Part shown: positions 24,538-42,986 of the stretch, piece by piece | Numbering within the stretch: the first letter of the stretch is position 1 | How the letters are laid out: each line of letters starts with the position of its first letter | Source: Fontimonas thermophila | GTDB lineage: Bacteria; Pseudomonadota; Gammaproteobacteria; Nevskiales; Nevskiaceae | Direction: 5' to 3' | DNA: 64,000 nt | NCBI RefSeq assembly: GCF_900113085.1 | Contig: NZ_FOOC01000003.1 | Coordinates: forward strand, 1 to 64,000 | Notes under the pieces: model-generated | What the model was told of the DNA's origin: nothing | The model's input: the letters and a program-made list of their open reading frames with translations, nothing else | Databases searched by the model: none | Program-made: the position numbers and the translations under genes

Positions 24538-24682
24538 CGGCACAGGATACGCGAAGCTGGAACAGAGTCGAATTTACTAGCAGGTTACTCACCCAGATGG
24601 GGGGAAGCTTGCGCAGAGGATGCGTGCAACACTGCACGGCGAGGACATCCGATGGATTCGACCAGGCTGTTGGGGGGTGGAA

Positions 24683-27546: not shown

Positions 27547-28562
27547 CCTTGATCCTCGCCGGCGTCATCGTCTTCGGTGTCGGCGCTTACGTGATTCTCG
27601 ATGGGTTCGATCTGGGGGTCGGCATCCTGTTTCCGTTCATCCCCGATGATGCGATGCGCGACACCGCGATCAACAGCATCGCGCCGGTCTGGGACGGCAA
27701 CGAAACCTGGCTGATTCTCGGCGGCGCGGTGCTGTTCGCGGCGTTCCCGGTGGCCTACGCAGTGGCGCTGTCGGCGTTCTACATCCCGGTCATGCTGCTG
27801 CTGTTCGCGCTGATTTTCCGCGGCGTGGCTTTCGAATTCCGCTTCAAGTCCAGGCGCAGCAAGCACTGGTGGTCGCGCGCTTTTGCCGGTGGCTCGACGC
27901 TCGCGGCCTTTGCGCAAGGCCTGCTGCTGGGTGGTGTGCTCGAGGGCGTTGTGGCCGTGCCAGGTCCGCCCGGGTCGGGGATCGCGTTCGAATTCGCCGG
28001 CGGTCGTTTCGACTGGCTCACCCCGTTTTCGGTGATCACCGGTCTTGGCGTCGTCGGTGGCTATGCCTTGCTTGGTGCGACCTGGCTCAACATGAAGACC
28101 GAGGGCGGCCTGCGTGACTGGTCGCGTCAGGCGGCGCGGCGCGCGCTGTTCGTGTCGCTGTTCGCGCTCGCCACTGTCAGCGTTTATACGCCGCTGAAGT
28201 TCGATGACATCGCCCAGCGCTGGTTCGCCGACATGCACTGGCTGAGTCTGTCGCCAGTGCCGCTGGCCACCGCGGTCGTTGCGTTTTCGCTCTACCGCGA
28301 ACTCAAGGCCGGTTCGCACTACCCGCCGTTTTTCTACGCGATCGCGCTGTTTTTGCTTGGCTACATCGGCATCGGTATCAGTCTGTGGCCGCATATCCTG
28401 CCGCCGGCGCTCACCGTCTGGAACAGCGCCGCGCCGCCGCAGAGTCAGGCCTTCGTGCTGGTCGCACTCGCGGTGACCCTGCCGATGGTGCTGATCTATA
28501 CCGTCTATGCCTACTGGGTGTTCCGTGGAAAAGTCCAGCCTGGAGCCGGCTACACGCACTGA
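27537..28562 (+). CDS. cioB: Cytochrome bd-type quinol oxidase subunit II
   Basis: Partner subunit of 341 residues with about eight membrane helices. YVILDGFDLGVGIL near residue 17 and WDGNETWLILGGAVLFAAFP near 50 are CydB/CioB signatures. AAGGAG sits nine bases before the ATG, inside the end of cioA. A third small frame starts within its last 38 bases, so the three form one operon. Confidence 0.94.
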   Translation: MDLTLILAGVIVFGVGAYVILDGFDLGVGILFPFIPDDAMRDTAINSIAPVWDGNETWLILGGAVLFAAFPVAYAVALSAFYIPVMLLLFALIFRGVAFEFRFKSRRSKHWWSRAFAGGSTLAAFAQGLLLGGVLEGVVAVPGPPGSGIAFEFAGGRFDWLTPFSVITGLGVVGGYALLGATWLNMKTEGGLRDWSRQAARRALFVSLFALATVSVYTPLKFDDIAQRWFADMHWLSLSPVPLATAVVAFSLYRELKAGSHYPPFFYAIALFLLGYIGIGISLWPHILPPALTVWNSAAPPQSQAFVLVALAVTLPMVLIYTVYAYWVFRGKVQPGAGYTH

Positions 28563-28696: not shown

Positions 28697-31600
28697 TTAG
28701 TCGGTGACGAACCAGGGTGTTTTGTCCGGCCGGAGGAACAGGCGCTCCATCTCCGCCCGGTTGAACGGCCGCGAGCCGATGCGGCCGAAGACGGCGATCT
28801 GGCCGCCGGTTTCATCCACCGCGCGGTCGCGGTCCAAACCCTTGCTCAGCGCCAGCGCCGGATCGCCGGTATCGGCCCAGGCGATCCATTGCGGTTTGGG
28901 ATCGGGCGAAAAGCCATAGAACTTGGGCTGCGACTCGGGCGAGGTGAGCTGGAAGACGTGCAGGCCGGTGTCGTCGGCGACGTAGGCGAACAGCGAGGCA
29001 TTGGTCGAGCCGACGATCACGTCATGCGCATACCGCAGGCGGCCGTCGCCGGTGGTGCGCAGATACTCGGTCGGCTTTTCCGGATTCTGGACGTCGACGA
29101 TCACCAGGCCGTCCGCACCGGCGGCGACGTAAGCAAAAGTGCGGGCGACGTACACGCGCTGCGCATCGGCGATCGGCAGCACGGTCACCGGTCGCGGCCG
29201 GCTCATGTCGGTGATGTCGAGCGTCTCCAGGCCACGCGCGCTGGTGGCGAACAGATAGCGGAACTGCACGGCGAGGCTGCGCACGTCTGGCACCGGTGTG
29301 ACCGCGGTCACCACCGGTTGCAGGGGATCGGCGAGGTCGAGCGCGACGATGCCGGCTCTGGCAGCGACATATACCCGACTGCCGGCGATGGCGAGATGGC
29401 GTGCACCATCGAGGACGCCGCCGGGATTGAAGGTGAGCGCGCGTGTGAGCTGGTTGTCACGCGGTTCGCCGTTTTGCAGCGTATCGACAGAGGTGAGGAT
29501 CAGGCCTTCTTCGGCATCGGTGATCAGCGCGTAGTGATAAATCGGCAGGAAAGGCTGCTCCTGATTGACTTCGCGCATGAACGGAGTATTGGCCTTCCAC
29601 GGCGCGATCGGATTGTTGGTCGGCAGCGCGACGCAGGTCGCGTTCCGGCTCGCGATATGGGTGTCGTGGCCGAGCGATGAAAACGGCGCGGTGATCAGTC
29701 TCTGGCTGATGCCCTTGTTGCCGATGCTGGCGACATCGAACACCTGCATGCCGCTTTTGCCCTGGGCGGCGTAGAGATATTCGCCGCGCAGTTGCAGGCA
29801 GGTGGTCGCAGACCCCGCGCGGTTTTTGTGCACGTGTTCGAGCCTGCGTCCGCGTGCCTCGTGCCGCCGATACCAGTCGGGATAGACATAGCGGTGCAGA
29901 TAGGAGCCGATCACCGCCTGCGGCTCGTCCCATTCGGTCACCTGTACGGCGGCGACGCCGTTTGCTGTGCCGGTGTAGGCGTGGTGGCCGACGAAATTGA
30001 CGAAATTGGTGCCCAGGCCGAGCAGCGAGGCCATCCAGGCATTGTTGTCATTGGCCGCCGAGAGGTGACAGTCCGTACAGGTCTTGGTCTCGGTCTTGCG
30101 TTCGGTGTGCGGGTAGTGCGGCGCGAAGGCCTGGCTGGAATGGCCGCTCGCCGCGACCGGGGGTTGCTGGACGTAGATTTTCTCGCGGTTGGCGTTGGTG
30201 GAGGAGAGAATCAGCGCCGAGCTGCTGCGGATCGGCGCGATGCGATGGCCCTTGACCTCGCCATGGCGGCCGAGCATGTAGAAATCGTCGCGGACGACCT
30301 GCGGGTTATAGGTCGCATAGTTGCGGGTCTCGCCGCCTTCGAAGTGCTGGCGCTCGGTTTTCCAGTTGGCCTGGATCGGCAGATGGCAGCCGAAGCAGGA
30401 TGTCGTCCACGAGCTGTGGCAGGTGATGCACATCATCTCGTCATCGCGGTGGGCGCGGTCCTGCGGCTTGACGTCGAGGCCGAATTTGAAATGCTCGGTG
30501 TCGCGGGCCATCAGTTTGGCGCGCGCCGCCTTGGGGTTGTAATGCGGGCTTTTGGGATCGACCGATTCCTTGACCAGCGAGACTTCCCACTCCAGCCCGG
30601 GTGTCAGGCCGGAGCGTTGGAACAGCCTGCCGTTGATCCACTCAAAGCGCAGTCGGCCGTCCTGCACGCGCAGCTTGGACAGATCGGTTCCGCCGGGGGG
30701 CGCGGCCGGCCCGGAGGTGCGCAGGGTGGGCAGCCGGTCGGCCGTGCCGTGACAGTCCTGGCATTCGATTTCCACTGCCTGGGCGACCTCGCCGACGATA
30801 TGCCCATTGCCATGTGCATCCTGGGCAAAGTGGCAGTCCACGCAGTGCATGCCTTTTTCGACGTGGATCGAATAGAGCTGCTGGGCCTTGCTGAACCTGT
30901 GCGGATCGTCGTCCGCCACCGGGTTGCCGGCGGCATCGAGCAGATTGCCCTTCCTGTCGCGCTTGTACACGGCGCGGAAGTTCCAGCCGTGGCCGTGATA
31001 GTCGGCGAACTGGGTGTGCTGCATCTGGTCGTTCATGTCCCAGACGCGGCGCAGGAAATCCAGATCGCCCCAGTTGCCGCGGATCGCGGCTTCCTCCGGG
31101 TTGCGGCGGTTGATTTCGCGGATCTCGCTGTCGGTGGGATATTTCTGCCGCTCCGGGAACATGCGCGGCGCATCCGGCTCGTAGTCCCACATCGTGTAGC
31201 CGAGCATGGAGTTCAAAAAGACGTTGGGCTGGTGCATGTGGCAGACCATGCACTGCGCGGTGGGGATGGCGCGCGTGAATTCATGCCGCAGCGGGTGGCC
31301 CTCTTCATCGCGGGGGATGGTGGGATCGGCGCTGATGCTGGTGCCGCCATGACCGTATCGCGCATACGGGCCGGAGTGGCGCACCTCACGGTCATTGGCA
31401 TAGACCACGTGGCAGGCGCTGCAGCCGGAACTGCGGTAGTCGCCGGGCTGTTCGTTGGTGCCGAGAAACCAGAGCAGAGGGTCGTTGAGGCGGGTCTTGG
31501 TGATGTTGATCAGGGGTACTGCGATGCGCTGGCCAGTGCCGGGCCCGCGGTTGGACTGGCGGAAATCGGGACGGCCCGGTTCTTCCAGGCGCTGGAGCAG

Positions 31601-32581
31601 TCCCAGGGCATTGGGCAGGCCGGTTTCCGGAAACAGGGAGTTGATGTTGCGGCCGCCGCGCTCGAACACGCGGAAAACGTCGGCGGGTGGCGTGACTTCC
31701 CAGGCCGGCAGCGGGTAGAGCACGTCGAGGACGCCTTTGCGTCTCATGTTCTCGTCCGGTGCCACTGGCGCGCGCACGGCGCTTTGGATGTAGGTGAGGT
31801 TTTCGTCCGGCGCAGGGCCATCGTAGAGGGATTCGAGCCAGTCGAACCATCGTGACCGGATCGGCAAGGTCGGTGTTTTCTCAAGCCCGCGCGGGTGGTG
31901 GACCGGGGCGTAGTTCTCGCCGGTGATGTAGCGCTTGAATGGCAGGATGCCGTTGTTGTACGCCGCACCGCCCCAGAGCATGGCGCCGGTGCTCATCAGG
32001 CTGCGACGGCTGGCTTCGATGATCGGCTGGTGGCAGGCCCCGCAGGCGTAGTCGGCGACGCGATAGTCGCCGGGGTTGACGAAGCGGATGAAGGCCGGTG
32101 ATTCGCGGTTGAGCAGGGTGTAGCTCAGTTTCGGATTGGCGCTGGAGAGGCCTTGCGCTGCGCCGGTGGCCGCCGATCGGCGCATCCAGGACTGCGGCCA
32201 GCGCGGCTGGATGTGCGCCTGCTCCATCGCCTCGATGTAGCTACGCTCGACGCGGCTGGCGCCAGCGGGCGCGTGCACCGTCGCATCCCCACCGTGACAA
32301 TCGGTGCAGCCGAGTACCACGCCCGGGTTCTGGTGCATGGTCGGGCGGTCGGTTGCGGTGTGGCAGCTCATGCAGCCGCCCGATTTGGCCTGCATCTGCG
32401 CAAGACTCTGGGTTCGCGGTGCAGGCGGGGCCATTGCATCGTCGTATGTGGTTGACCGGGCGCTGCCGCTTGCCTGCACGGATCCTGCCGCGGCGAGCAT
32501 CAGCATGACGATGGCCAGTCCGCGACCGCCGCGACGGCTGCGGCGCTGGAGGACAGGGCGGGGGGCAGAGGACGGACGCAT
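28697..32581 (-). CDS. Decaheme cytochrome c with C-terminal LVIVD beta-propeller
   Basis: Exported protein of 1294 residues. A signal peptide ends near VQASGSA. Ten CXXCH motifs follow in the N-terminal two thirds: CMSCH, CTDCH, CGACH, CSACH, CMVCH, CVDCH, CQDCH, CITCH, CFGCH and CTDCH. From about residue 880 on, repeats such as IVALDLADPLQP, LETLDITDMSRP and LVIVDVQNPEKP mark LVIVD-type propeller blades. It is the last gene of a minus-strand set and starts five bases after the outer-membrane barrel gene's stop, suggesting a porin-cytochrome partnership at the outer membrane. Substrate or final acceptor is unknown. Start ATG 32581 has only a weak ribosome-binding site. Confidence 0.85.
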   Translation of the reverse strand: MRPSSAPRPVLQRRSRRGGRGLAIVMLMLAAAGSVQASGSARSTTYDDAMAPPAPRTQSLAQMQAKSGGCMSCHTATDRPTMHQNPGVVLGCTDCHGGDATVHAPAGASRVERSYIEAMEQAHIQPRWPQSWMRRSAATGAAQGLSSANPKLSYTLLNRESPAFIRFVNPGDYRVADYACGACHQPIIEASRRSLMSTGAMLWGGAAYNNGILPFKRYITGENYAPVHHPRGLEKTPTLPIRSRWFDWLESLYDGPAPDENLTYIQSAVRAPVAPDENMRRKGVLDVLYPLPAWEVTPPADVFRVFERGGRNINSLFPETGLPNALGLLQRLEEPGRPDFRQSNRGPGTGQRIAVPLINITKTRLNDPLLWFLGTNEQPGDYRSSGCSACHVVYANDREVRHSGPYARYGHGGTSISADPTIPRDEEGHPLRHEFTRAIPTAQCMVCHMHQPNVFLNSMLGYTMWDYEPDAPRMFPERQKYPTDSEIREINRRNPEEAAIRGNWGDLDFLRRVWDMNDQMQHTQFADYHGHGWNFRAVYKRDRKGNLLDAAGNPVADDDPHRFSKAQQLYSIHVEKGMHCVDCHFAQDAHGNGHIVGEVAQAVEIECQDCHGTADRLPTLRTSGPAAPPGGTDLSKLRVQDGRLRFEWINGRLFQRSGLTPGLEWEVSLVKESVDPKSPHYNPKAARAKLMARDTEHFKFGLDVKPQDRAHRDDEMMCITCHSSWTTSCFGCHLPIQANWKTERQHFEGGETRNYATYNPQVVRDDFYMLGRHGEVKGHRIAPIRSSSALILSSTNANREKIYVQQPPVAASGHSSQAFAPHYPHTERKTETKTCTDCHLSAANDNNAWMASLLGLGTNFVNFVGHHAYTGTANGVAAVQVTEWDEPQAVIGSYLHRYVYPDWYRRHEARGRRLEHVHKNRAGSATTCLQLRGEYLYAAQGKSGMQVFDVASIGNKGISQRLITAPFSSLGHDTHIASRNATCVALPTNNPIAPWKANTPFMREVNQEQPFLPIYHYALITDAEEGLILTSVDTLQNGEPRDNQLTRALTFNPGGVLDGARHLAIAGSRVYVAARAGIVALDLADPLQPVVTAVTPVPDVRSLAVQFRYLFATSARGLETLDITDMSRPRPVTVLPIADAQRVYVARTFAYVAAGADGLVIVDVQNPEKPTEYLRTTGDGRLRYAHDVIVGSTNASLFAYVADDTGLHVFQLTSPESQPKFYGFSPDPKPQWIAWADTGDPALALSKGLDRDRAVDETGGQIAVFGRIGSRPFNRAEMERLFLRPDKTPWFVTD

Positions 32582-32585
32582 GGGC

Positions 32586-34424
32586 TCAGTATGTGAGCGT
32601 GAGGTTGGCGAGGACCGAATACGCGCTCTGATCCGGGAACAGTGCCCGAAAACCCGCGCCGGGCAGTAACTCGGCGTACGACAGGCGCAGCACAACGTTC
32701 TGGTTCATCAGCGGTCGCCAGATCAGTGATGCGGAGAGATCCCAGCCGATGGCGCGGTCGATATCGCCCTGGTTGCGCGCCACTTCCAGCACGGTGGTGT
32801 CGCCGAACCAGAGGTGATTGGCATTGGTGGACAGGCGCAGTGTCGGCAGCAGGTCCAGATCGGTGCCGAGCCCGAGCAGTACGACGCCCGGATTGGCGAA
32901 GTTGCTCTGCCCGTGCTGGACCGAGCTGCGCAAGGCATTGAGTACGCCGTTGCGGTTCGACAGCGCAACCACGCCGCCTCCGATCAGCGGCACCGACTGG
33001 CGGATCCAGTAGCTGGTGTCGGCACCGGCGATCAGCGGGTTTTCGACGATGGCATCAAAGCCATTGGCGCTGTCGTCGTAGGGATTGCGGTCGGCACTGC
33101 CCCACAGGGCAGAGGCGCGGATCCGCGTCCAGTTGAAATCCCAGGAGGCCTCGGCGGCGGCAAAACCGGCGCGGATGCGGCGCGGGGCGTCGCTGAACAC
33201 GCCGCGCGATTCGCGTCCAAGCGCGAGGTAGGCGGATACGGTGAGATTGGTGCGGCCGAAGTGACCGTCGCCGTTGTAGCCGAGATAGGTTACCCGGTAG
33301 CGGCGCGGTTTCTCGGTGCCCAGAGAGGCGGGACGTTCGATGAAGCCATTGGTGTTGTAGAACGGTTTTTCGTCCTCGCGGTTGTCATTGAGCGCCAGCA
33401 GCAGCTGGCTGGTGAAGCCGAGCACCGGGAAATCCTGCCGGTAGAGGTTGGCGGCCAGCACGTCGTCTTGCCGCAACGCGCGGTCCAGGGCGTTGAGTCC
33501 GGAGTTGGTGTCTTTTTCCAGACGCCGCGCCCACAGCAGGTTGTATTGCCAGCGGTTGTTGTCGCGGGTGCCGAACAGGCGCACGGCCAGCGGCAGGTCC
33601 TGGAACAGAAAGCCGCGGAAATCGAGCGCAATCGGCTGGATGCCGACGCGCACGGAATCGAAGTCGTAGCGGACGCTGACATCGCGCAGGTGGACGTCGG
33701 CGAACAGCTCTTGTACGCCGGTGAAGGTTTCGCGGCGCAGGCGCGAGTCGCGCCGCGGATCGATGCGCAGCGCACCGGCCTCATCGACGCGCACCTGGTT
33801 GAAGTTGAAAGCCGGCGTGAAGCGCAGCTCGTAATCGGGCGGCCTGAACACGGTATTGCCTTTGAGATAGGCCAGGCCCAGGGTCAGGGTCTGCGCCAGG
33901 ACCTGTTGATCGGGGCCGCCGAAAATGTCGAGCGAACCGGGGCGCGAGGTCGCCTGGTTGCCGACCGGGGTCGGCACCTGCCGTGGTTCCCAGACGGTGT
34001 CGGCGATCAGCGTCAGCACGAAGAACTCGTCGCTGCCACGGACGGGTTTGTCGCCCTTGAGCGTGTTCTGGTTGTAGGGGTCGAACAGGTTCTCCCGCAT
34101 CAGACCAAGGCCGTCGAGGATGCGCCAACGGTCGGGCACCGGCGCATCCCGCGTGGCGGTCCAGGCTTGCACCGGCCTGACCGGCGCCAGGCCGCTTTGG
34201 CGATTGAGGTCGAGCGGCTCGTCACCCTGCGTGTCCTGGCGCAGCGCAGGTTTATCGCCGGGGCGGCGGACCTCACCGAGGCGGGTGCTGTATTGCAGGT
34301 GCAGGGGGCGGGATTTTCCACCCGGTGCGGGGGGATCGGCCGCCGCTGGGCGTGCCGGCGGTGGTGCGGTGGCGACCGCCGCACAAAAGACCAGCAAGAC
34401 CGGCGCCCGCCGCCATCGCCTCAT
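32586..34424 (-). CDS. Predicted outer-membrane beta-barrel protein of the cytochrome operon
   Basis: About 612 residues with a signal peptide (Arg-rich start, hydrophobic APVLLVFCAAVATA) and many alternating strands, ending LANLTLTY with a C-terminal aromatic residue as in barrels inserted by BamA. Asp/Arg/Asn-rich loops alternate with strands such as IRASALWGS and VVLRLSYAELL. I cannot assign a named family with confidence. Lying between a GlcG-type lipoprotein gene and a decaheme cytochrome gene, it may sheathe the cytochrome through the outer membrane, as MtrB-type porins do. The ATG at 34424 overlaps the upstream stop (ATGA); ATG 34436 is also possible. Confidence 0.72.
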   Translation of the reverse strand: MRRWRRAPVLLVFCAAVATAPPPARPAAADPPAPGGKSRPLHLQYSTRLGEVRRPGDKPALRQDTQGDEPLDLNRQSGLAPVRPVQAWTATRDAPVPDRWRILDGLGLMRENLFDPYNQNTLKGDKPVRGSDEFFVLTLIADTVWEPRQVPTPVGNQATSRPGSLDIFGGPDQQVLAQTLTLGLAYLKGNTVFRPPDYELRFTPAFNFNQVRVDEAGALRIDPRRDSRLRRETFTGVQELFADVHLRDVSVRYDFDSVRVGIQPIALDFRGFLFQDLPLAVRLFGTRDNNRWQYNLLWARRLEKDTNSGLNALDRALRQDDVLAANLYRQDFPVLGFTSQLLLALNDNREDEKPFYNTNGFIERPASLGTEKPRRYRVTYLGYNGDGHFGRTNLTVSAYLALGRESRGVFSDAPRRIRAGFAAAEASWDFNWTRIRASALWGSADRNPYDDSANGFDAIVENPLIAGADTSYWIRQSVPLIGGGVVALSNRNGVLNALRSSVQHGQSNFANPGVVLLGLGTDLDLLPTLRLSTNANHLWFGDTTVLEVARNQGDIDRAIGWDLSASLIWRPLMNQNVVLRLSYAELLPGAGFRALFPDQSAYSVLANLTLTY

Positions 34425-36454
34425 TTGCCGTCGCATACGTTCTGCTCGTCGGTATCGAGGAACGGTGCCTGGGGGCATTGCACATAGCGCAAATGGACGG
34501 GCTCACCGACGTCATCGCGGCGGACGATGGTATCGGCGCGCATCGCCGGCGGTGCCGTGGCGAGGCCGCTGCCCAGACGCAGGGCGGCATGATAGGTGCC
34601 GAGGAAAGCGATCATGTCGTCCTGGTCGATGCCGTCGCCGGAGACGCCGATGCCGCCGACCAGCTGGTTGCCCCGGTACAGCGGAATGCCTCCGGCGAAA
34701 ATCTGCAGGCCGTTGGCGAGCCGCGACGGGCCGCTGCCGGACGGCGAGGGTAGGGCGGTACAGCCGCCGGCGGCGACATCCGGGCCGACGCCGAGCACGA
34801 ACAGCAGATGGGTGACGATGGCGGTGTAGTCGAGGTCGAGCTGAAGGCCGACGTTGAACGGACTCCACTGCGCGATCGGTTTGGCGATCGGCCCGTTCGG
34901 GCTGCCGCGGATGCCGTCGGGGAAGTACGGGCGTGCGAAATTGCCGATGCTGCGGCTGGCGAAGCCATAGGCACCGTCGAGGATGTCCGGCAGACCGAAG
35001 AACTGCCGGGTTGCCGGCGCGTAATCGGCGATCGATTGTGTGGCGCCGTTGCCGAGGTAGGTGATGTCCGGGGCGGACTGCAGGTCGCTGGCCGCCGATG
35101 GATGGCTGAAGAACATCGCGCTGCGCGCTTTCTGCAGCGCGACGTCGATGCCGAACACCGGCGCATCGCGACTGCGGACGATACCCAGCACACTGCCGTA
35201 GGTATCGACCACCGCGATGCTGACCCGCGCCGGTGTGGATAGCGGCCGCCGGATCTGGGCGCGCGCGCGGTTGGCGATGCCCAGCGCCTCCTCGAGCAGG
35301 GTTTGCACTTCAACGGCGGTGAGCGCGGCGCTGCCGGTGGCGGCGGCATCGGTGGCCGCGCGGGCGGGGAAGCGGTTCTGATTGGCGGCATCGACCAGCA
35401 CGAAGCCATCGAGCGCGGCCAGCGGTCCGGTCGCAGGCCGGATGCCGGAAGCCGGCTGGCCAAAGGCGAGCCCGGCGACGAGGCCATCATCGCCGGTGTA
35501 GCCGGGGACGGCGAGCCGGCGTCCGGACACGCCGTCGAGGCTGGCGAAAGCCGGCGCATCGGCGGCGCGGGTCAAAAGGTCCGAAGGACGCGCGTCGGAA
35601 TAGCGCAAGGTTTTGCCGGCGACGGTGATGCGGTCCGCACGGCGGTCTTGCGGTGCATCGAAGCCGATGGTCCCGGCGAGCGCGATCAGCTCGTCGAGAT
35701 CCTGGTCGGTGTCGCGCAAGTCGAGATCCAGGCCATAGACGCCGTCGGCGAGCACGCCGATGCCGCCGACGGGCACCCCGTTCTTGTAGAGCGGGAAACC
35801 GCCGGGATCGGCCGACAGGCCCAGCGGACTGCGGTGCGGGCCCGGCGAGGGCCGGCTACCGGTGAAACGCGCCGCCAGATCCGAGCACGGCAGCTGCGAG
35901 AACTGCACGCCGAACAGCGGGCCGCCGGGCTGGTCGAACTCGCCCGGATTGAAGAATTCCTGCACGATCTGGCTCGCCGTGCGCGTGGTGAAGGCATTGC
36001 CTTCGGAGCTCAAGTACGCGCCGGTGATGGCTTTGGCGATGGCCATGAGTGCGGCCACGCCATCGACCCCTGCCTGCACGTCCGGATAGCCGAGGCTGGT
36101 CAGCAGGCTGCGGAATTCGATGCCATCGAGGCCGCCGACGACGGCGCGGCCGGAATCGACCCTCAAGGCTCCCGGGTTGGCCCCGTGCATCGCGAACACC
36201 CCGAGCACGTTGCCGACCCGGTCGACGACGGCGATCGTCGCCTTGGCATTGCGCGCCTGCGCCTCGGCCACGGCCTGGGCGATGACTTTCTGCACGTCGG
36301 CGACGGTGAGATGCTGCGGGGTATCGGTGCCGCACTGGCCGGTGCAAGGCGTGGTTGGGATGGCGCCGCCGCCGCAGGCGCAAAGCATCATCGCCGCAGC
36401 CAGGATTGCCGACAGGGGAGCGACCACGAGGCGTCTGAGGCTCTCCGGCTTCAT
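34421..36454 (-). CDS. Lipoprotein with two GlcG/HbpS (DUF336) domains
   Basis: A 677-residue lipoprotein with a signal peptide and lipobox LCAC (Cys27), then CGGG. Two copies of the GlcG/HbpS fold follow. The first (about 48-270) has ATIAVVDRVGNVLGVFAMHG and the second (about 400-640) has VSIAVVDTYGSVLGIVRSRD; each is followed by GIPLYR/GFPLYK and VGGIGV blocks. HbpS-type domains bind heme or aquo-cobalamin and sense redox in some bacteria. Placement between two multiheme cytochrome genes fits a heme-handling or redox-sensing role (inference). It starts within the stop of the FHA-cytochrome gene (ATGA). Confidence 0.82.
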   Translation of the reverse strand: MKPESLRRLVVAPLSAILAAAMMLCACGGGAIPTTPCTGQCGTDTPQHLTVADVQKVIAQAVAEAQARNAKATIAVVDRVGNVLGVFAMHGANPGALRVDSGRAVVGGLDGIEFRSLLTSLGYPDVQAGVDGVAALMAIAKAITGAYLSSEGNAFTTRTASQIVQEFFNPGEFDQPGGPLFGVQFSQLPCSDLAARFTGSRPSPGPHRSPLGLSADPGGFPLYKNGVPVGGIGVLADGVYGLDLDLRDTDQDLDELIALAGTIGFDAPQDRRADRITVAGKTLRYSDARPSDLLTRAADAPAFASLDGVSGRRLAVPGYTGDDGLVAGLAFGQPASGIRPATGPLAALDGFVLVDAANQNRFPARAATDAAATGSAALTAVEVQTLLEEALGIANRARAQIRRPLSTPARVSIAVVDTYGSVLGIVRSRDAPVFGIDVALQKARSAMFFSHPSAASDLQSAPDITYLGNGATQSIADYAPATRQFFGLPDILDGAYGFASRSIGNFARPYFPDGIRGSPNGPIAKPIAQWSPFNVGLQLDLDYTAIVTHLLFVLGVGPDVAAGGCTALPSPSGSGPSRLANGLQIFAGGIPLYRGNQLVGGIGVSGDGIDQDDMIAFLGTYHAALRLGSGLATAPPAMRADTIVRRDDVGEPVHLRYVQCPQAPFLDTDEQNVCDGK

Positions 36455-38181
36455 GGCATCCCCCGAGCAGTTGACTGCGCGGCAGGCGGCAGCGTGCGCG
36501 AGTCGACCCTCTCCCAATCGACCGCGTGATAGTCGTGGCAGGACTGGCAGGTCGAGGGCGTTTCCTTGAGCGCGCCGGTGTCGCCGTGGCAATCGCGGCA
36601 GCGCTGGATGTCCGGCAGCACCACGTCCTGCGCATGCTGCGAGGTTTCGACGGCATGACAGCTCGTGCACGGCACCGTGCGGTGCTGGTCGTGCGGGAAC
36701 ACGGTGCGGGTGTAGGCCGGCCGGTTCGGCGCCACTGCGGCAATGGTCCAGGGGTGCTCGGCGCTGCCGTCGCCGGTAACGGTGTGGCAGTAAAAGCAGG
36801 TGCGGCGCTCGAAGACATCGCGCAGTGCGATGGCCGCCCGTGCATCCGCCCAGGCGAGCGCGGCCCGGGCCTGGGCCGGCGGCAGGGTTTCGCCCGGCCG
36901 GCGGACCTGTCGCACCACGGCCGGTGCGTCCGGCCAGGGTGCGCCCCCGGCGAGCGCGACCCGCGCGTAATAGTCACGCACGACCTGAACCACTTCCGCC
37001 GGTTTGCCATGCGGCAGCTCGCGGTCTGGCGCCGCCGGATCGAAATCCAGCCGGTGGCATGCGGCGCAGTGGGTGGCCATCGCAATCGGCTGGAAGGAAG
37101 TGCCGTCCGCGGTCGGCGTGTGACAGTCGGCGCAGACCAGAACCCGCTTGCCGCCCGGGGCGTCGATGCCCTGGGGGTCGAGGTGTACGTCGTGCGGGTA
37201 TTTGAGCCCGGTGTCCTCGTGCAGCGCCTCGGGCGTCCCCTGCCGGGCTTCGATCCAGTGAAAGCCTGTTCCCGTGGGATTGCGACGGCTCAGCTGCAGG
37301 CGGAACGGCGGGTGATGCCGCGACCAGTCCGGGACGGCCTCGAGAGTGCCGTGCGCGGTCTGCTGGGGATCGCGGTGGCAGTCGGTGCAGATGCGGTTTG
37401 CGGCGGGGATCAGGGCTGGTCCGTTGTGCTCGCGATGGCAGTCGGTGCAGCGCCAGCCGGCAAACGGCGGTGCTGCAAGGCGGGCGTGATCGGAGGCATG
37501 CTCCTTGAGCGCGGTGTGGCAGCCGCGGCAGGTGTCGTCGCGCACCGCTTCGAAGGGCTTGCGGTGGCAGGCCGCGCAGTCGGTGGTGAGGGCGTGGTGG
37601 GCGGCCGACAGCGGGCCGCTGTTCCAGATCAGGTCGGCTGCCGGCTTATCCGGCGGGATGCGGTCGCGGCTCACCGTCTGTGTGCGCTCTATGGCGTGCA
37701 GATGGGTCACGGCCGGCACGATCAGGCCGCCAATGAGAATCAGCCCGAACAGTACCCAGGCCATGCTGCGGCGCGACCAGGCGACCTGCGAAAGCCGCGT
37801 GCGCAGCTGCACTTTGCGGACGGCGGTTTCATCGTGTTCCGCGTAGCGCTCGGTGAGCGTCAGGCTCAGGTCCTCTCCGGGGGTTGGCTTGCCGACGGTG
37901 AGCCGGAAGCGCCCGAAGTCGAGCACATCCCCTGGCGACAGCTCGGCGCTGAGCTGCGGGCTGCCGTTGACGTACACGCCCAGGCGGGTCTTGGCTTCGA
38001 GCCGCACACCGGACGGACGACTGGTCGAGGGCGACAGCTCGGCATGGGCGAGGGCGACCCGCAGATCGGCGAGGACCAGGGTCTGGTCGGTGCCGCGGCC
38101 GATGCGGATCACCGGTGCATCGAGCACGCGCTCGGTCGCCGGCGCACCGGATCGGGGGCTGGTTTTCAAGCGCACGCGCAT
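36451..38181 (-). CDS. FHA domain fused through one membrane helix to a decaheme cytochrome c
   Basis: A 576-residue fusion. Residues 1-110 form a forkhead-associated fold (IRIGRGTDQTLVL, then GVYVNGSPQLSAELSPGDVLDFGRFRL), which normally binds phosphothreonine peptides in the cytoplasm. One helix near 145-170 (MAWVLFGLILIGGLIVPAV) follows. The rest carries ten CXXCH motifs and would be periplasmic. The topology places a phospho-recognition module on the inside and hemes on the outside. Start MRVRLKTS at 38181 lies seven bases after the upstream gene. Its stop overlaps the next gene (ATGA), so it is cotranscribed with the GlcG-type lipoprotein. Confidence 0.85.
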   Translation of the reverse strand: MRVRLKTSPRSGAPATERVLDAPVIRIGRGTDQTLVLADLRVALAHAELSPSTSRPSGVRLEAKTRLGVYVNGSPQLSAELSPGDVLDFGRFRLTVGKPTPGEDLSLTLTERYAEHDETAVRKVQLRTRLSQVAWSRRSMAWVLFGLILIGGLIVPAVTHLHAIERTQTVSRDRIPPDKPAADLIWNSGPLSAAHHALTTDCAACHRKPFEAVRDDTCRGCHTALKEHASDHARLAAPPFAGWRCTDCHREHNGPALIPAANRICTDCHRDPQQTAHGTLEAVPDWSRHHPPFRLQLSRRNPTGTGFHWIEARQGTPEALHEDTGLKYPHDVHLDPQGIDAPGGKRVLVCADCHTPTADGTSFQPIAMATHCAACHRLDFDPAAPDRELPHGKPAEVVQVVRDYYARVALAGGAPWPDAPAVVRQVRRPGETLPPAQARAALAWADARAAIALRDVFERRTCFYCHTVTGDGSAEHPWTIAAVAPNRPAYTRTVFPHDQHRTVPCTSCHAVETSQHAQDVVLPDIQRCRDCHGDTGALKETPSTCQSCHDYHAVDWERVDSRTLPPAAQSTARGMP

Positions 38182-38188
38182 GGCCGCT

Positions 38189-39160
38189 CTACCAGTAGAA
38201 GAACACGCTGACGATGTGTGCAACGAGCGCTGCCAGCAGGCCGAAGCTGAGCGGGACGTGGATCAGCAGCCACACCTGCAGGCGCGCGTGCAGGGCGATG
38301 TCGCGGTTGATGCGTGCGATCAGGGCATTGCGTCGCGACAGCACATCCAGCAGTTGCTGCAGGCGCTGGGCTTCTTTTTCGTCCTTGCCGGCGGCGACCA
38401 GCTGCCCGGCCATGAACATCACCGTGTTTTGTGCCGTGGCATTGGGATCGAATCCTTTGGTAAGCCGCGCCTTCACCGCATCCAGACGCTCGGTGAGAAA
38501 TTCGGTGATGCCGGCATCAGCGTCGGCGGCGGTCTTGGGAGTTTTGGGGCCGTAGAGCTGGGCGCGCAGTCCGCCGCCGATGCGGATGTTCTCGGCGGAG
38601 CGCACGATTTTGCGATGGACTTCCGGACCGAGCAGGTCGGCGATTCGGATCGCCTGCGCGTTGAGCTCGAAGACCTCGTCGATCCAGGCCTCGCGCTGGC
38701 TGCCGTCGCGCAGGCGGGTGATCGCCGACGGCAGACGCGTATAGACGACGACGCCGTAAAGCCCGGAGGCGATGACCGCCATCATCAGGGCATAGGCGGC
38801 GGTATGGATGTTCCAGCCGAACTGGAAACCGCAGTGCAGGGTCGCGATGACGACCAGCGCAAGGCCGAGGTAGACGTGTGCGGAGGTCCAGCCTTTCACG
38901 CTGCCCAGACGCGAGTGATAGCGCCGTTTGCGTACGCCGAGCCAGGTCAGCCACAGGATGAGAACGGCGCCGAGCGTGCCGAGCGTATAGCCCAGCCAGG
39001 TACCCCCGTTGGGGCCGTCGACCGGATCGTGCCAGAGATAGGCCGCGATGCTCAGCGCGCACAGCAGGATCGCCAGTTTCGCCCAGCGGTAGCCGGCATA
39101 CTGCAGAAAACCGCTGTGGATCGGTTCGTCGATTCGCTTGGATGGGGCTGCCGTGCGCAT
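38189..39160 (-). CDS. Four-helix membrane protein with possible heme b ligands
   Basis: A 323-residue inner-membrane protein with helices near 28-45, 55-75, 92-110 and 118-140 and a last helix at the C-terminus. A soluble region of about 150 residues lies between the fourth and last helices. Histidines sit at helix positions typical of b-type hemes (TSAHVYLGL, IATLHCGF, NIHTAAY, LLIHVPLSF, VAHIVSVFFYW). Between a ferredoxin-flavin reductase gene and a membrane-bound decaheme cytochrome gene, it could carry electrons across the membrane. No named family was recognised. Confidence 0.7.
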   Translation of the reverse strand: MRTAAPSKRIDEPIHSGFLQYAGYRWAKLAILLCALSIAAYLWHDPVDGPNGGTWLGYTLGTLGAVLILWLTWLGVRKRRYHSRLGSVKGWTSAHVYLGLALVVIATLHCGFQFGWNIHTAAYALMMAVIASGLYGVVVYTRLPSAITRLRDGSQREAWIDEVFELNAQAIRIADLLGPEVHRKIVRSAENIRIGGGLRAQLYGPKTPKTAADADAGITEFLTERLDAVKARLTKGFDPNATAQNTVMFMAGQLVAAGKDEKEAQRLQQLLDVLSRRNALIARINRDIALHARLQVWLLIHVPLSFGLLAALVAHIVSVFFYW

Positions 39161-39172
39161 GGACGGAGTCTT

Positions 39173-41572
39173 TCACGCAGAACCCTGGATGATGCGGATG
39201 AAGCGCTCGGGCGAGACGCGCAAGGCGGCGCCGGTCGGACAGGCGCGTACGCAGGCTGGCCCTCCGGGCAGGTCCTTGCACATGTCGCACTTTACGGCTT
39301 TCTTGGGCGCCGATGGGTCGTGGACCGGCGTGTGCGCCCCCGGCTCCTCGCCGCCAAACAGCAGCCAGCGCCAGAGGCTGGGGCGATGCGGCTGGGGGGC
39401 GCCCATCTGGATCACGCCATAGGGACAGTTGCGCACGCAGTTGCCGCAGCCGATGCAGGCATCGGAGATGAACACCTCGCCGCTGGGCGAGCGGTGGATG
39501 GCATCGGGCGGGCAGTCCTTCATGCAGTGTGGATGCTCGCAGTGCCGGCAGGACGTCGGCACGTGCAGGTTATGGACGGTCGGGCCGGCTTCGCGGTCCA
39601 GCCGCGAGATGCCACCGTGGGTGTCGGCGCAGGCTTTCTCGCAGTGATCGCAGCGCACGCACAGCGACTCGTCGATCAACAGAACGTCAGTGGCCTCGCC
39701 GAGGCCTTGTGCCATCAGGAACTGCACCAGACTGCCGCTGCCGGCTGCCGCGGTGGCATTGACGTTGGCCATCACGCGCTGACGGTAGGTTTCCTCCAGA
39801 CGCGCGCGCAGCTCGGGCCGCGTCGCGAGCAGGGCCTTGAACGCACCGCCTTCCAGCTCGATCGTTTCGGTGGCGACTGCCGCCCTGACCGTGGCAGTGC
39901 GCGGTGTATCCGAGAGCAGCGCCATCTCGCCGACGTACTGTCCGGCCGGTACGTAGGCGAGCACGACTTCGCGCCCGCCGATGATGCGTGAGACCGTGAC
40001 CGAACCTTTGCGGATCAGGTGCAGGCCGCCGGGAGCATCGCCCTCCCGGAATACCGTTTCGCCGGCCTTGAAGCGCCGCACCGTCGCGCTGGCCACGACG
40101 TCCTTCAGCGCATCGGCGTCGATGCCGGGCGCGATGTGTGCCTGGATCGCGCGCAGCAGGAAGGTTTCGTCGAGCACGCGTTTGACGCTGGGCACGCTGG
40201 CGATGAGCTTGTTCATCGAGCGCCGCGGGGTTTCGATCAGCACGCAGCCGGCGCCGGCGCGCACCGTGGCGCTGCGGCGGCGGCCGGAGATCAGGCTCAT
40301 CTCGCCGAAGAACTGGCCGCTGCCCAGGGTGAGGGTGCGGGTGTCATCGACCGGGTCGATCGCGATCTCCACCGAGCCGTCGAGGATCGAGAAAAAGCTG
40401 TTGCTGTAATCGTTGCGCCGGAAAATGATCTCGCCCGGTTGTGGCGTGCGGATTTCCGAATCGAGCAGGAACTCGCGCAGTTGCAAGGGCGTCAGCGGAG
40501 ACAGGATCGGGATGCGTGCGCGGATGCGCTCGAGCGTGGCATCGATGCTGCGAAAACCGGGGATGCGCGCGAACTTGGCCTTGAGCAGGGGGGCGTCGGC
40601 GGGTTCCGGCCTGCGCCCTTCGATGAATTCGACGACCTCATAGCCCTGATTCATCGCCTGCTTGATCAGTGGAAAGCCGGCGAGCGCACCGATGATATAC
40701 AGCCCCGGCACGTTGGACTCGTACTGCGGCGAGACCGCGGGCACCGCGCCGGGATCCTTGCCCGGAAACATCACGCCGCAGCGCTCGACGAATTCGCGCG
40801 GCGGCGTGGCGCCCAGACGGGCGATCACGCGATCCACCGGGATTACGGCTTCCCCCTGCGCGGTGTTGAGGATGACCGCGCCGGGTTTGGCTGCGCCCGG
40901 GGTGGGGCGGACCGATGCCACCGTGGCGTTGTAAACGCAGGCGAGCTTGCCGTCCTCGATGGCCTTGAGGATCAGCGCATTGTTGCCGTCCTTGGCACGG
41001 TCGAATTCATCCCGCCGGTTGACGATCGTGACCTTGTTGCGGGCAGCGAGCGCGACGGCGTTCTCGATCGCGGCGTCTCCGGCGCCGACGACGACGATGG
41101 TTTCGTTCTGGTAGGCGTCGGGATCGTCGAGCTGGTACTGGACGAATTCGAGATCCTCGCCCTCGCAGCCGAGCTTGCGGATGTTGCCCTGCACGCCGAT
41201 CGCGAGCACCACGTACTCGGCCCGCACCGTACTGCCATCGGCGATGACGATCGTGAAATTGCCCTTGCTGCCGTGGATCGCGGTGACGTTCGCGCGGTAG
41301 CGGACGTTGACTCCGAGTTGCGCGACACGCGCGTTCCAGGCCTCGAGGATGGCCTCGCGCTTGCCGGCCTCGAACGGAATCGAGGCGCGCAGCGGCAGCA
41401 CGCCCGGCTCCGCCATCACATGCTTGCCCTTCTGGTAGCGGAAGATGGTGTGGGCGAGATGCGCCTCGGCTTCCAGCAACAGGTGCGGGATTCCGAGCTC
41501 GGCGGCGCGGCACGCGGCGGCAAGACCGGCGGGACCCGAGCCGATGATCCCGACTCTGACTGCGTCGCCCAT
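39173..41572 (-). CDS. FAD reductase with two cyclic-nucleotide domains and four 4Fe-4S motifs
   Basis: A 799-residue cytoplasmic protein in three parts. Residues 1-310 form a thioredoxin-reductase/YpdA-like flavoprotein with GIIGSGPAGLAAA and a second nucleotide site, VVVGAGDAAIENA; the CXXC redox pair of true thioredoxin reductase is absent. Two cNMP-binding domains follow (about 330-450 and 455-570), with phosphate cassettes FGEMSLIS...RRSATV and VGEMALLSDTPRTATV, both keeping the phosphate-binding Arg. The C-terminal part (about 615-799) has 16 cysteines in four CX2CX2-4CX3C-like groups, as in NrfC/DmsB ferredoxins. It would move electrons from NAD(P)H to the membrane partner, gated by cAMP or cGMP (inference). 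Start MGDAVRVGII at 41572 fits the fold. Confidence 0.85.
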   Translation of the reverse strand: MGDAVRVGIIGSGPAGLAAACRAAELGIPHLLLEAEAHLAHTIFRYQKGKHVMAEPGVLPLRASIPFEAGKREAILEAWNARVAQLGVNVRYRANVTAIHGSKGNFTIVIADGSTVRAEYVVLAIGVQGNIRKLGCEGEDLEFVQYQLDDPDAYQNETIVVVGAGDAAIENAVALAARNKVTIVNRRDEFDRAKDGNNALILKAIEDGKLACVYNATVASVRPTPGAAKPGAVILNTAQGEAVIPVDRVIARLGATPPREFVERCGVMFPGKDPGAVPAVSPQYESNVPGLYIIGALAGFPLIKQAMNQGYEVVEFIEGRRPEPADAPLLKAKFARIPGFRSIDATLERIRARIPILSPLTPLQLREFLLDSEIRTPQPGEIIFRRNDYSNSFFSILDGSVEIAIDPVDDTRTLTLGSGQFFGEMSLISGRRRSATVRAGAGCVLIETPRRSMNKLIASVPSVKRVLDETFLLRAIQAHIAPGIDADALKDVVASATVRRFKAGETVFREGDAPGGLHLIRKGSVTVSRIIGGREVVLAYVPAGQYVGEMALLSDTPRTATVRAAVATETIELEGGAFKALLATRPELRARLEETYRQRVMANVNATAAAGSGSLVQFLMAQGLGEATDVLLIDESLCVRCDHCEKACADTHGGISRLDREAGPTVHNLHVPTSCRHCEHPHCMKDCPPDAIHRSPSGEVFISDACIGCGNCVRNCPYGVIQMGAPQPHRPSLWRWLLFGGEEPGAHTPVHDPSAPKKAVKCDMCKDLPGGPACVRACPTGAALRVSPERFIRIIQGSA

Positions 41573-41672
41573 GACCGCCGTTATCTCCCTGATGGCTCGC
41601 CTTGTGGCTGGCTGGGACCCAAACCTAGAATGGCCCGCAGCAAAGGGCAAGCCCACTCGGGGAGTCCAGGCC

Positions 41673-42986
41673 GTGTGTCCACCTCGTTTCCGCTTCGTCC
41701 GGATGCTGGGCTGTTTCGTTGCGGTGTGTGCGCTGACCTTCGCCCAGGGTCTGGTATCGGCCGGTGACCGGCACGAGGGTGTCGCCAGTTGCGCCGGCAG
41801 CACCTGTCACGGCGCCACGCGGCCATTCGGCGATGTGCCCATCCGGCAGGATGAGTATTTCATCTGGCAGCAAAAAGATGCGCACGCACGCGCCTACGCC
41901 GTGCTGCTCGGCGAGCGCGCGCAGCGCATCGGCCGTCATCTCGGGATCAGGCCACACGAGGCGCCGCAGTGTCTGGTATGCCATGCCGATTATCCCGCGC
42001 CGGAGTTGCGCGGCGAACGCTATCTGGTCAGCGACGGGGTCGGCTGTGAGGCCTGTCACGGTGGCGCCGGGCGATGGCTCGCCGAGCATACGCGTGCGGG
42101 CATCAGCGCCGAGGAAAAACAGCAACGGGGAATGACGCCGCTGTGGAAACCAGAAGTTCGATCCCGCGTCTGCCTGCAATGCCACCAGGGCGATGCACAG
42201 CATCCGATCACGCACGCGATGATGGCCGCCGGCCATCCGCCGCTGCTGTTCGAGCTGTACACCTTCACCGGACTTTCCCCGCCGCATTACGACTGGGATG
42301 ACGATTACGCGCGCCGGAAATCTGCTCCGGATGCAGTGCGCGACTGGGCCGTCGGCCAGATGGTTGCGGCGCAGGTGTTCCTGACCGAACTGGCCTCCGG
42401 CCGGCTCGGTCAGGGCGGGGTGTTCCCGGAGCTGATGTACTTCGATTGCAACACCTGCCATCACAGCCTCGATGCCGGGCGCTGGACGCCGGGGCGGACC
42501 GGCCCGCTGCCACCGGGTGCACCGCCCCTGGCCGACACCCATCTGCACTGGGTCGGGGTTTGGCTCGACGTTGTCGCACCCGCGCTCGCCGATCGCTGGC
42601 ACCGGCATTGGCTCGGGCTGCAGTCGGCGATGGCGTCGGGGCCGGCGGCGGTGCGCGCAGCGGCGGCGGCCATGCTCGGCCTGCTCGAGCGCGAGATCCT
42701 GCCCCTGGGTCTTGATCGGAGGCTCGATGCCGGTCAGCTCAGGGCCTTGCTGCAGGCGATCGCAGCGCTGCCCCATACGCCTCGCGCGCGCGACTTCAGC
42801 TCGGCAGAACAGGCGGCCATGGCCGCGCTGGTGTTTGCCGGTGCGCTCCAGGCGCGCGGCGAGCGCCCTGGGCCCACTCTCGACCGGGCCATCGATGCAC
42901 TGTATGCCGCGGTGCGTTCGCGCGACCGCTTCGACCCGGCGCAGTACCACGCCGCCCTGGCCGAACTCCAGCGCGCCCTGCGTTGA
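41673..42986 (+). CDS. Pentaheme cytochrome c, c554-like
   Basis: An exported protein of about 437 residues. The signal peptide is MLGCFVAVCALTFAQGLVSAG, cleaved near AGD. Heme motifs are one unusual CX4CH (CAGSTCH), then CLVCH, CEACH, CLQCH and CNTCHH. This pattern resembles cytochrome c554-type proteins of nitrogen and sulfur metabolism. The C-terminal ~200 residues have no heme motif and look helical. Start GTG 41673 follows GGGGAG by eight bases; ATG 41703 is an alternative. It is divergent from the reductase gene 100 bases away and probably shares its regulatory region. Confidence 0.83.
   Translation: MCPPRFRFVRMLGCFVAVCALTFAQGLVSAGDRHEGVASCAGSTCHGATRPFGDVPIRQDEYFIWQQKDAHARAYAVLLGERAQRIGRHLGIRPHEAPQCLVCHADYPAPELRGERYLVSDGVGCEACHGGAGRWLAEHTRAGISAEEKQQRGMTPLWKPEVRSRVCLQCHQGDAQHPITHAMMAAGHPPLLFELYTFTGLSPPHYDWDDDYARRKSAPDAVRDWAVGQMVAAQVFLTELASGRLGQGGVFPELMYFDCNTCHHSLDAGRWTPGRTGPLPPGAPPLADTHLHWVGVWLDVVAPALADRWHRHWLGLQSAMASGPAAVRAAAAAMLGLLEREILPLGLDRRLDAGQLRALLQAIAALPHTPRARDFSSAEQAAMAALVFAGALQARGERPGPTLDRAIDALYAAVRSRDRFDPAQYHAALAELQRALR

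Follow-up and report, generated by a model that had tools for sequence, protein, structure and literature searches.

A seven-gene cluster partly homologous to a putative porin-cytochrome complex

The described system closest to the locus analysed here is PCC4, a putative iron-oxidation porin-cytochrome complex predicted in 2017, for which inward electron flow, with Fe(II) as donor and quinones as acceptor, has been proposed and which was found in genomes of iron oxidisers (He et al. 2017, PMC5566968). The ext cluster of Geobacter sulfurreducens, extHIJKLMNOPQS, offers a second comparison; as outlined by Jahan et al. (2018, PMC5877670), it has a barrel, a pentaheme, a decaheme and a (here probable) heme b membrane protein in common with our locus, but also a Rieske protein for which we see no equivalent. 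Further comparable systems are MtrCAB and MtoAB, in which, as here, decaheme cytochromes are paired with an outer-membrane barrel; PCC3, whose inner-membrane protein motifs, as outlined in 2017 (He et al. 2017, PMC5566968), recur at this locus; and the Uet complex of Tenderiales (undecaheme UetJ, triheme UetDEG, NHL proteins), which differs in heme counts when compared by its summary description. None of the literature consulted was recognised as describing the cluster or a tested substrate for it, and the 440 novel multiheme clusters of one survey (PMC11475568), as excerpted, may include it.

The window, by which we mean the whole 64,000-nucleotide stretch of DNA that was analysed, contains at 28697-42986 six closely packed minus-strand genes (g1 to g6) and a divergent pentaheme cytochrome gene (g7), whose presence was confirmed. 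Gene starts were chosen by us among candidate start codons; with these, gaps of 12, 7 and 4 bases separate g1/g2, g2/g3 and g5/g6, while g3 and g4 overlap by 4 bases and g4 and g5 by 16 (4 if the ATG at 34424 is used). Heme-binding motifs total 25, with ten CXXCH each in g3 and g6 and four CXXCH plus one CX4CH in g7. Coordinates and motif counts thus agree with the preliminary description of this DNA, which had reported the packed operon with its divergent neighbour and about 25 hemes (10+10+5).

We next consider how far this arrangement is conserved, referring to g1-g2-g3 as module A and to g4-g7 as module B. Relatives of g6 were found in at least 593 genome stretches, and the best 80 of these constitute our named loci; the hosts include the isolates Duganella radicis, Steroidobacter agaridevorans, Parahaliea mediterranea and Limnobacter alexandrii. 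The order g1-g6 is kept in 14/14 relatives' loci uncut by a contig end, and the order g2-g6 in 53 of the 60 named loci (from the best 80 of at least 593) with at least 7.5 kb upstream. In 13 of those best 80, g1 lies downstream of g7 rather than, as in the window, directly upstream of g2. In a 398-genome phylum sample, a g2-type protein occurs in all 11 g6-bearing genomes versus 19/398 overall; the modules are unlinked in three of the 11, with g1-g2-g3 intact in each. Across the large number of Proteobacteria that were examined, the seven genes mostly stay together, and because their order is conserved, a chance arrangement is untenable. This co-occurrence, the check across genomes that the preliminary description had called for, supports its proposal of a dedicated electron-transfer system.

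Four proteins homologous to a PCC4-type cluster

Motif counts among homologs refer to full-length rows, after removal of those with no stop, no start or less than 70% of the length (for g1, 81 were found and 65 kept). g1 (41572-39173, minus strand) has Pfam matches above cut-off to Pyr_redox_2/3, to cNMP_binding in two stretches, and to several Fer4 models including PF13247 (E 9.8e-10). Its FAD-NAD(P) domain is of the TrxR/YpdA type, and the CxxC of thioredoxin reductase is absent from the first 340 residues in 66/66 rows; judged by these motifs, it would be an NAD(P)H-reductase-type domain that lacks this CxxC. The last 200 residues hold 16 cysteines in 65/65 homologs, predicted to be the ligands for four 4Fe-4S clusters. 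The tandem cyclic-nucleotide domains resemble the PKA regulatory subunit, and their phosphate-binding arginines are conserved (R433 in 66/66 rows, R558 in 65/66). A role in anti-phage defence was considered and rejected, as the PADLOC matches were Pycsar models confined to the cyclic-nucleotide region of g1.

The inner-membrane protein g2 (39160-38189, minus strand) has no Pfam domain over cut-off and only unconvincing matches to solved structures (E of at least 0.13). Two WX3HX13H motifs and [ST]GXXG are nonetheless each present in 64/64 homologs, those of the window protein being read by eye as two WX3HX13H and SGXXG; they match the motifs given for the PCC3/PCC4 inner-membrane protein in the corresponding section of He et al. 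(2017, PMC5566968), and g2 probably carries two hemes b. g3 (38181-36451, minus strand) combines an FHA domain (E 3.9e-7) with cytochrome c7/c3 matches, all above the Pfam cut-off, and a probable membrane helix read by eye; ten hemes are found in 76/77 homologs. The FHA domain is missing or gapped in 7/78 rows and the serine expected for phosphothreonine binding is mostly alanine, so phospho-regulation through it is doubtful. Divergent from g1, the c554-type pentaheme g7 (41673 or 41703 to 42986, plus strand) matches Cytochrome_C554 above cut-off (E 1.2e-9) and carries five hemes in 70/70 homologs; it matched no solved structure. These Pfam domains and invariant motifs back the chain from FAD through 4Fe-4S and probable heme b to a decaheme that had been proposed at the outset, and the signalling domains named there were found in g1 (PKA-like, with conserved arginines) and in g3 (FHA).

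As a PCC4 reference for hhalign we used two loci, L180 and L183, assigned to PCC4 by description. Against these, the C-terminal part of g1 aligned with E 4e-50, g2 with the membrane protein (98.6%, E 5.1e-16), the C-terminal part of g3 with the decaheme (E 1.5e-18) and g7 with the tetraheme (E 5.1e-20). Likeness extends to architecture, since PCC4 as excerpted likewise has a PF13247 iron-sulfur gene preceding a membrane protein with two WX3HX13H and SGXXG (its Subgroup II), together with a decaheme, a c554-type cytochrome and a barrel; tandem cyclic-nucleotide domains, too, are present in L180 and L183 as in g1. Differences are nevertheless substantial. Heme counts are 5, 10 and 10 here versus 4, 5 and 10 in the PCC4 outline, and the FAD domain is fused within g1 and of another type, whereas the same outline puts a separate FAD/2Fe-2S reductase upstream of the PCC4 tetraheme gene. 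No PCC4-type counterpart was detected for the FAD domain of g1, the FHA domain of g3, the HbpS-like g4 or the ExtM-like decaheme/LVIVD protein g6, with g4 and g6 finding none in L180/L183 by hhalign; g5 could not be aligned with the L180 barrel (probability 0.6%), although a single sequence makes for a weak test.

Because g1, g2, g3 and g7, four proteins out of seven, have homologs in a cluster that corresponds to PCC4 as described, the labels "undescribed" and "unlike Pcc" in the preliminary description were too strong. The latter had been argued from the signalling domains, of which the cyclic-nucleotide pair is shared with L180 and L183 and the FHA domain is indeed without counterpart there. 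By these comparisons the cluster appears only partly new, about half of it resembling PCC4 and half not.

A distinct, predicted outer-membrane side

The lipoprotein-like g4 (36454-34421, minus strand) matches the HbpS-like family PF03928 in three stretches (E 9e-25), and 61/80 homologs have a lipobox pattern. g5 (34436-32586, minus strand), a predicted outer-membrane beta-barrel, has no Pfam domain over cut-off and no NCBIfam match whatsoever; Alginate_exp is matched by 4/45 homologs and is absent from the window protein. Its AlphaFold2 model (pLDDT 80.8, pTM 0.77) has about 18 strands by our own count, and in Foldseek the top match was AlgE (E 8.5e-16), with Occ substrate channels also among the matches. 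An MtrB-type porin (about 26-28 strands) was rejected on this strand number and on the absence of MtrB from the 50 listed of 785 Foldseek matches. A barrel of about 18 strands does not appear wide enough to enclose a decaheme in the manner of MtrB. Since the g5 model is AlgE-like and of this size, an MtrAB-like arrangement with a decaheme inside the barrel is not supported. Membership in the MtrA/DmsE family (TIGR03508, cut-off 192.2 bits) was likewise rejected for g3, g6 and g7, which scored 14.8, 14.2 and 20.0 bits.

g6 (32581-28697, minus strand) is a decaheme cytochrome with C-terminal LVIVD repeats, matching LVIVD (E 9.2e-11) and cytochrome c3 above the Pfam cut-off and carrying ten hemes in 92/93 homologs. 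No lipobox was seen by eye, its profile matched no solved structure, and the AlphaFold model of the decaheme part (pLDDT only 40.9) was left out of the fold search. The NCBIfam ExtM model (NF040943) distantly matches g6 in 26/26 homologs, and weak ExtN and ExtO matches occur in g6 of seven; the window protein, which scores 80.6 bits where the cut-off is 800, was rejected as an ExtM equivalog and has ten hemes versus the 12 given for ExtM in the excerpted account of the ext cluster. The NCBIfam Ext models found no match in g2, g5 or g7 at E 0.1. The HbpS-like domains of g4 and the LVIVD repeats of g6 had not figured in the preliminary description.

Weak profile matches also linked g2 to two loci with PCC3-like neighbours, whose cytochromes in that comparison have 21 to 27 motifs versus 10 and 10 here. 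PCC3 membership was rejected, as the excerpted definition leads one to expect many-heme cytochromes (median 34 and 21) where g3 and g6 have ten each.

Proposed direction and destination of electron flow

Our preferred reading, to which we give roughly even chances, is a two-module electron relay that is linked to NAD(P)H, senses cyclic nucleotides and spans the envelope, with an exit to an outside acceptor. In module A, the FAD of g1 would accept electrons from NAD(P)H and the four predicted 4Fe-4S clusters would pass them to g2. The pair of hemes b that g2 probably carries would then bridge the inner membrane, as hemes do in NADPH oxidases and ferric reductases, and deliver the electrons to g3, the decaheme with a membrane anchor. 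In module B, g7 and g6 would carry them on to the outer membrane, where the barrel g5, the lipoprotein g4 and g6 may form an exit to a metal, humic or other redox compound. Activity could be tied to cell signals by the cyclic-nucleotide domains of g1 and perhaps by the FHA domain of g3.

We consider delivery to the outside likelier than a purely periplasmic reductase, in which g5 would admit a small solute (an oxyanion, iron chelate or organic acceptor) to be reduced or bound by g6, g7 and g4 with electrons from g1-g2-g3, none crossing the outer membrane. Although the match of the g5 model to AlgE and Occ substrate channels suits such a reductase, as does the distant kinship of g6 to ExtM of the Geobacter selenite/tellurite cluster, whose ExtI porin is suggested in the excerpted text to be a selenite/tellurite channel (PMC5877670), the ExtM match falls far under cut-off, g5 without any NCBIfam match shows no ExtI kinship, and type II secretion genes adjoin the cluster in some alphaproteobacterial loci; we regard this alternative as rather unlikely.

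An inward, PCC4-like conduit, leading from an outside donor (Fe(II), Mn(II) or other) through g6/g5/g7, g3 and g2 to quinones or, via g1, to NAD(P)+, draws on the PCC4-type homologs of g2, g3, g7 and the C-terminal part of g1 and on the iron-oxidiser genomes in which PCC4 is placed (PMC5566968, as excerpted). NAD(P)+ reduction, however, demands a low-potential donor. Many named hosts, among them Duganella, Steroidobacter, Parahaliea and Limnobacter, are also not known to be iron oxidisers, and we judge inward flow improbable. A further alternative is that NAD(P)H electrons serve assimilation or redox balance at the cell surface rather than respiration, through reductive iron or heme acquisition or by generating extracellular superoxide; it would accommodate the HbpS-like lipoprotein, the cyclic-nucleotide domains and the heme-ligand spacing of g2, which the excerpted text likens to ferric reductases and NADPH oxidases (PMC5566968). 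Fur-like sequences with at most six mismatches precede g1 in 4/63 loci versus 3/630 shuffles, but 59/63 loci have none, and we do not claim Fur control on so few; TonB and siderophore genes were not found among the recurrent neighbours inspected, which leaves this last alternative very improbable.

Within the relay reading, we tentatively entertain a broader possibility, namely an NAD(P)H oxidase that spans the envelope, is widespread and has so far no name. In it, the cytosolic, cyclic-nucleotide-sensing flavo-Fe-S protein would drive electrons through the di-heme-b membrane protein, the two decahemes and the pentaheme to the cell surface, by a novel type of exit (AlgE-like barrel, HbpS-like lipoprotein, decaheme-beta-propeller), in hosts not known to be electroactive. 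To our knowledge, hosts of the cluster have seldom been studied for envelope electron transfer. If the relay is real, many Proteobacteria of soil, freshwater and sea would carry a dedicated cyclic-nucleotide-gated envelope relay, and the PCC4 core would be a module combined with differing outer-membrane exits.

Regulatory and genomic context

FNR-, CRP-, sigma54- and NsrR-like sites upstream of g1 did not exceed two-base-block shuffles across 63 loci. Full-length narG was no commoner in cluster holders (2/17) than in non-holders (5/44) among relatives, an 18th genome (G039) that matches just 70 residues of the LVIVD part being left out of the holders. Anaerobic control and nitrate respiration were accordingly rejected, as neither the site counts nor narG gave any sign of an anaerobic respiratory context. 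Recurrent neighbours in the 107-locus set, which includes at least three genomes twice (L023/L088, L024/L069 with identical g6, and L036/L067), are Ccm cytochrome-maturation genes (13 loci), a PP2C phosphatase (12) and an FHA protein (7). These neighbours and the adjoining type II secretion genes fit export and assembly of the system.

Gene content and cofactor motifs

The seven genes lie where the preliminary description had placed them (window 28697-42986), and the tight packing it reported for the six minus-strand genes, g1 to g6 (28697-41572), was borne out, with gaps of 12, 7 and 4 bases and overlaps of 4 and 16. Its heme count likewise holds, with 25 motifs divided among g3 (10), g6 (10) and the divergent plus-strand g7 (5, one of them CX4CH). 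Pfam assigned pyridine-nucleotide oxidoreductase, cyclic-nucleotide and 4Fe-4S domains to g1, FHA and cytochrome c7/c3 domains to g3, HbpS-like domains to the lipoprotein-like g4, LVIVD repeats and cytochrome c3 to g6, and cytochrome c554 to g7; no domain exceeded the cut-off in the inner-membrane protein g2 or the barrel g5. Among full-length homologs, ten heme motifs were present in 76/77 g3 and 92/93 g6 proteins, five in 70/70 g7 proteins, two WX3HX13H motifs in 64/64 g2 proteins, and 16 cysteines within the last 200 residues in 65/65 g1 proteins.

The FAD part of g1 contained no CxxC in any of 66 rows and is therefore not a thioredoxin reductase; it is consistent with a ferredoxin-NAD(P) reductase of thioredoxin-reductase fold. 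Its tandem cyclic-nucleotide domains resemble protein kinase A regulatory subunits, and their phosphate-binding Arg was found in 66/66 and 65/66 rows, respectively. The FHA Arg of g3 was found in 60/78 rows, and the position occupied by Ser in canonical FHA domains was mostly Ala (7/78 rows gapped). In one close relative (L027, 7255-8559), the g3 ORF of 434 residues lacks the FHA part and keeps ten hemes.

Conservation of gene order

Searching 61 genomes (the cluster's own and 60 relatives) with the g6 protein gave matches in 18, or 17 after leaving out G039, where the match covered just 70 residues of the repeat part. We compared the surroundings of 16, two of which are cut by a contig end; g1-g6 occurred in identical order in all 14 uncut loci, and g7 was found in 12 of them, adjoining g1 divergently in nine and beyond g6 in three. 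A scan of named genomes yielded at least 593 stretches coding for a g6 relative. Among the best 80 of these, g5 directly preceded g6 in 73/73 loci whose upstream flank was 1.3 kb or longer, g2-g3-g4-g5-g6 was kept in 53/60 loci in which the flank upstream of g6 reached 7.5 kb or more, and 13/80 had the order g2-g3-g4-g5-g6-g7-g1. The seven exceptions among the 60 comprised two without a recognised g4, three with just the second of two modules, g4-g5-g6 (one with g7), and two with the first, g1-g2-g3, on the opposite strand beyond g6.

In 398 evenly drawn Pseudomonadota genomes, g6 occurred in 11 and a g2-type protein in 19, including all 11 g6 genomes. In G274, G409 and G456, g2 was either on a different contig from g6 or over 600 kb distant, with g1-g2-g3 still together. 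The eight genomes with g2 and no g6 carried g1-g5 (G214) or g1-g3 (G061) running into a contig end, g1-g3 only with g1 and g2 fused (G094, G213), a PCC4-like porin-cytochrome cluster (G082, G192), or PCC3-like neighbours carrying 21 to 27 heme motifs (G102, G207). At locus L176 (122-11656), a fused g1-g2 ORF of 1118 residues is followed by an FHA-decaheme gene, and g4-g6 are missing; two adjoining sulfite-reductase-type ORFs and a Fer4/Pyr_redox protein resemble dsrAB-dsrL.

Relation to PCC4

The cluster, which had been put forward as an undescribed conduit, is a variant of an already known kind, that kind itself being only predicted. He et al. 2017 (PMC5566968) describe PCC4 as a porin together with cytochromes of 4, 5 and 10 hemes and an inner-membrane protein with two WX3HX13H motifs and SGXXG; a redox gene lies upstream of the tetraheme gene and, in Subgroup II, a pfam13247 Fe-S gene upstream of the inner-membrane protein. 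Because its gene set fits this description, we took L180 as PCC4-type: its genes encode, in order, a barrel, a FAD/2Fe-2S reductase, a tetraheme, a cyclic-nucleotide/Fe-S protein with PF13247, a membrane protein and a decaheme. In L183 the set is the same except that no barrel was recognised, and the c554 gene has three heme motifs. Neither locus showed a pentaheme gene. The cyclic-nucleotide domains in these loci are a result of the present analysis, not of PMC5566968.

In profile comparisons with L180/L183, the C-terminal part of g1 matched the Fe-S protein (E 4e-50), g2 the membrane protein (E 5e-16), g3 the decaheme (E 1.5e-18) and g7 the tetraheme (E 5e-20). The likeness of g6 to the tetraheme (76%, E 2e-5) is at the heme-motif level only, and g4 and g5 had no match in these loci.

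Proposed function

The cluster most likely encodes an NAD(P)H-linked electron relay sensed by cyclic nucleotides, in which electrons would cross the inner membrane by way of g1, g2 and g3 in turn and then move through g7/g6 in the direction of the outer membrane, where g5/g4 would lie. That they are delivered outward, to the cell exterior, has about an even chance of being right. The g5 structure model (pLDDT 80.8, pTM 0.77) has about 18 strands by our own count, and among 50 matches listed of 785 its best was AlgE (E 8.5e-16), followed by Occ porins. This speaks against a barrel that wraps a decaheme in the manner of MtrB, and it keeps alive a different reading, a periplasmic reductase with its own substrate channel, which we consider possible though rather unlikely. 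An inward conduit like PCC4 appears improbable, as does, slightly more so, a role in iron/heme acquisition or superoxide. In 26/26 homologs g6 matched ExtM, from the selenite/tellurite cluster of Geobacter, but far under the cut-off (80.6 of 800 bits for the window's g6).

Distribution and neighbouring genes

A tree of 64 g6 proteins requires 8 changes of the gamma label, 6 of the beta label and 2 of the alpha label, against shuffled means of 21.7, 15.0 and 13.7, which indicates descent within lineages together with some transfer; the window's g6 groups with Nevskiaceae. Within its own genus g6 occurs in 3/11 genomes and is therefore an accessory trait. The cluster was also seen in bins or genomes labelled Marinimicrobia, Mycobacteriaceae, Vicinamibacteria and Bordetella parapertussis (L089, L091, L100, L102, L112), labels that may be wrong; L102 groups with betaproteobacterial bins.

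Among relatives no link with nitrate reductase was seen, and no anaerobic regulator sites were enriched upstream of g1 in 63 loci. In the same regions the 7-mer GCCGAGC occurred in 16/63, where two-base-block shuffles predict 1.8, and L084, L096, L102 and L107 have Fur-like sites.

Across 107 loci, some duplicates and many with short flanks, recurrent neighbours included CcmI (13 loci) and CcmB (7), a PP2C phosphatase (12) and an FHA protein (7), and a prepilin peptidase (7) and a GspE-like ATPase (6), with one or two representatives of each kind confirmed by Pfam. In L122, peptidase, GspE and GspF genes directly follow the cluster, with more pseudopilin-like ORFs recognised by eye. These neighbours fit cytochrome maturation, surface export and Ser/Thr signalling, each confined to some lineages.

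In the window, Pfam identified cytochrome bd oxidase subunits I and II (26152-28562, plus strand) convergent to g6, a pair not recurrent in the neighbour clusters inspected from other loci; a DUF5131 protein (24620-26020, plus strand) is also encoded, and the SelO protein adenylyltransferase gene (43381-44892, minus strand) adjoins g7. In 12 alphaproteobacterial-type loci a 159-residue protein with no Pfam match (L122, 5798-6277) is encoded on the strand of g6 and upstream of it, in L122 between g3 and g4, and a DUF4331-type ORF (L035, 857-1606) lies downstream of g6 in six loci, mostly Nevskiaceae-like.
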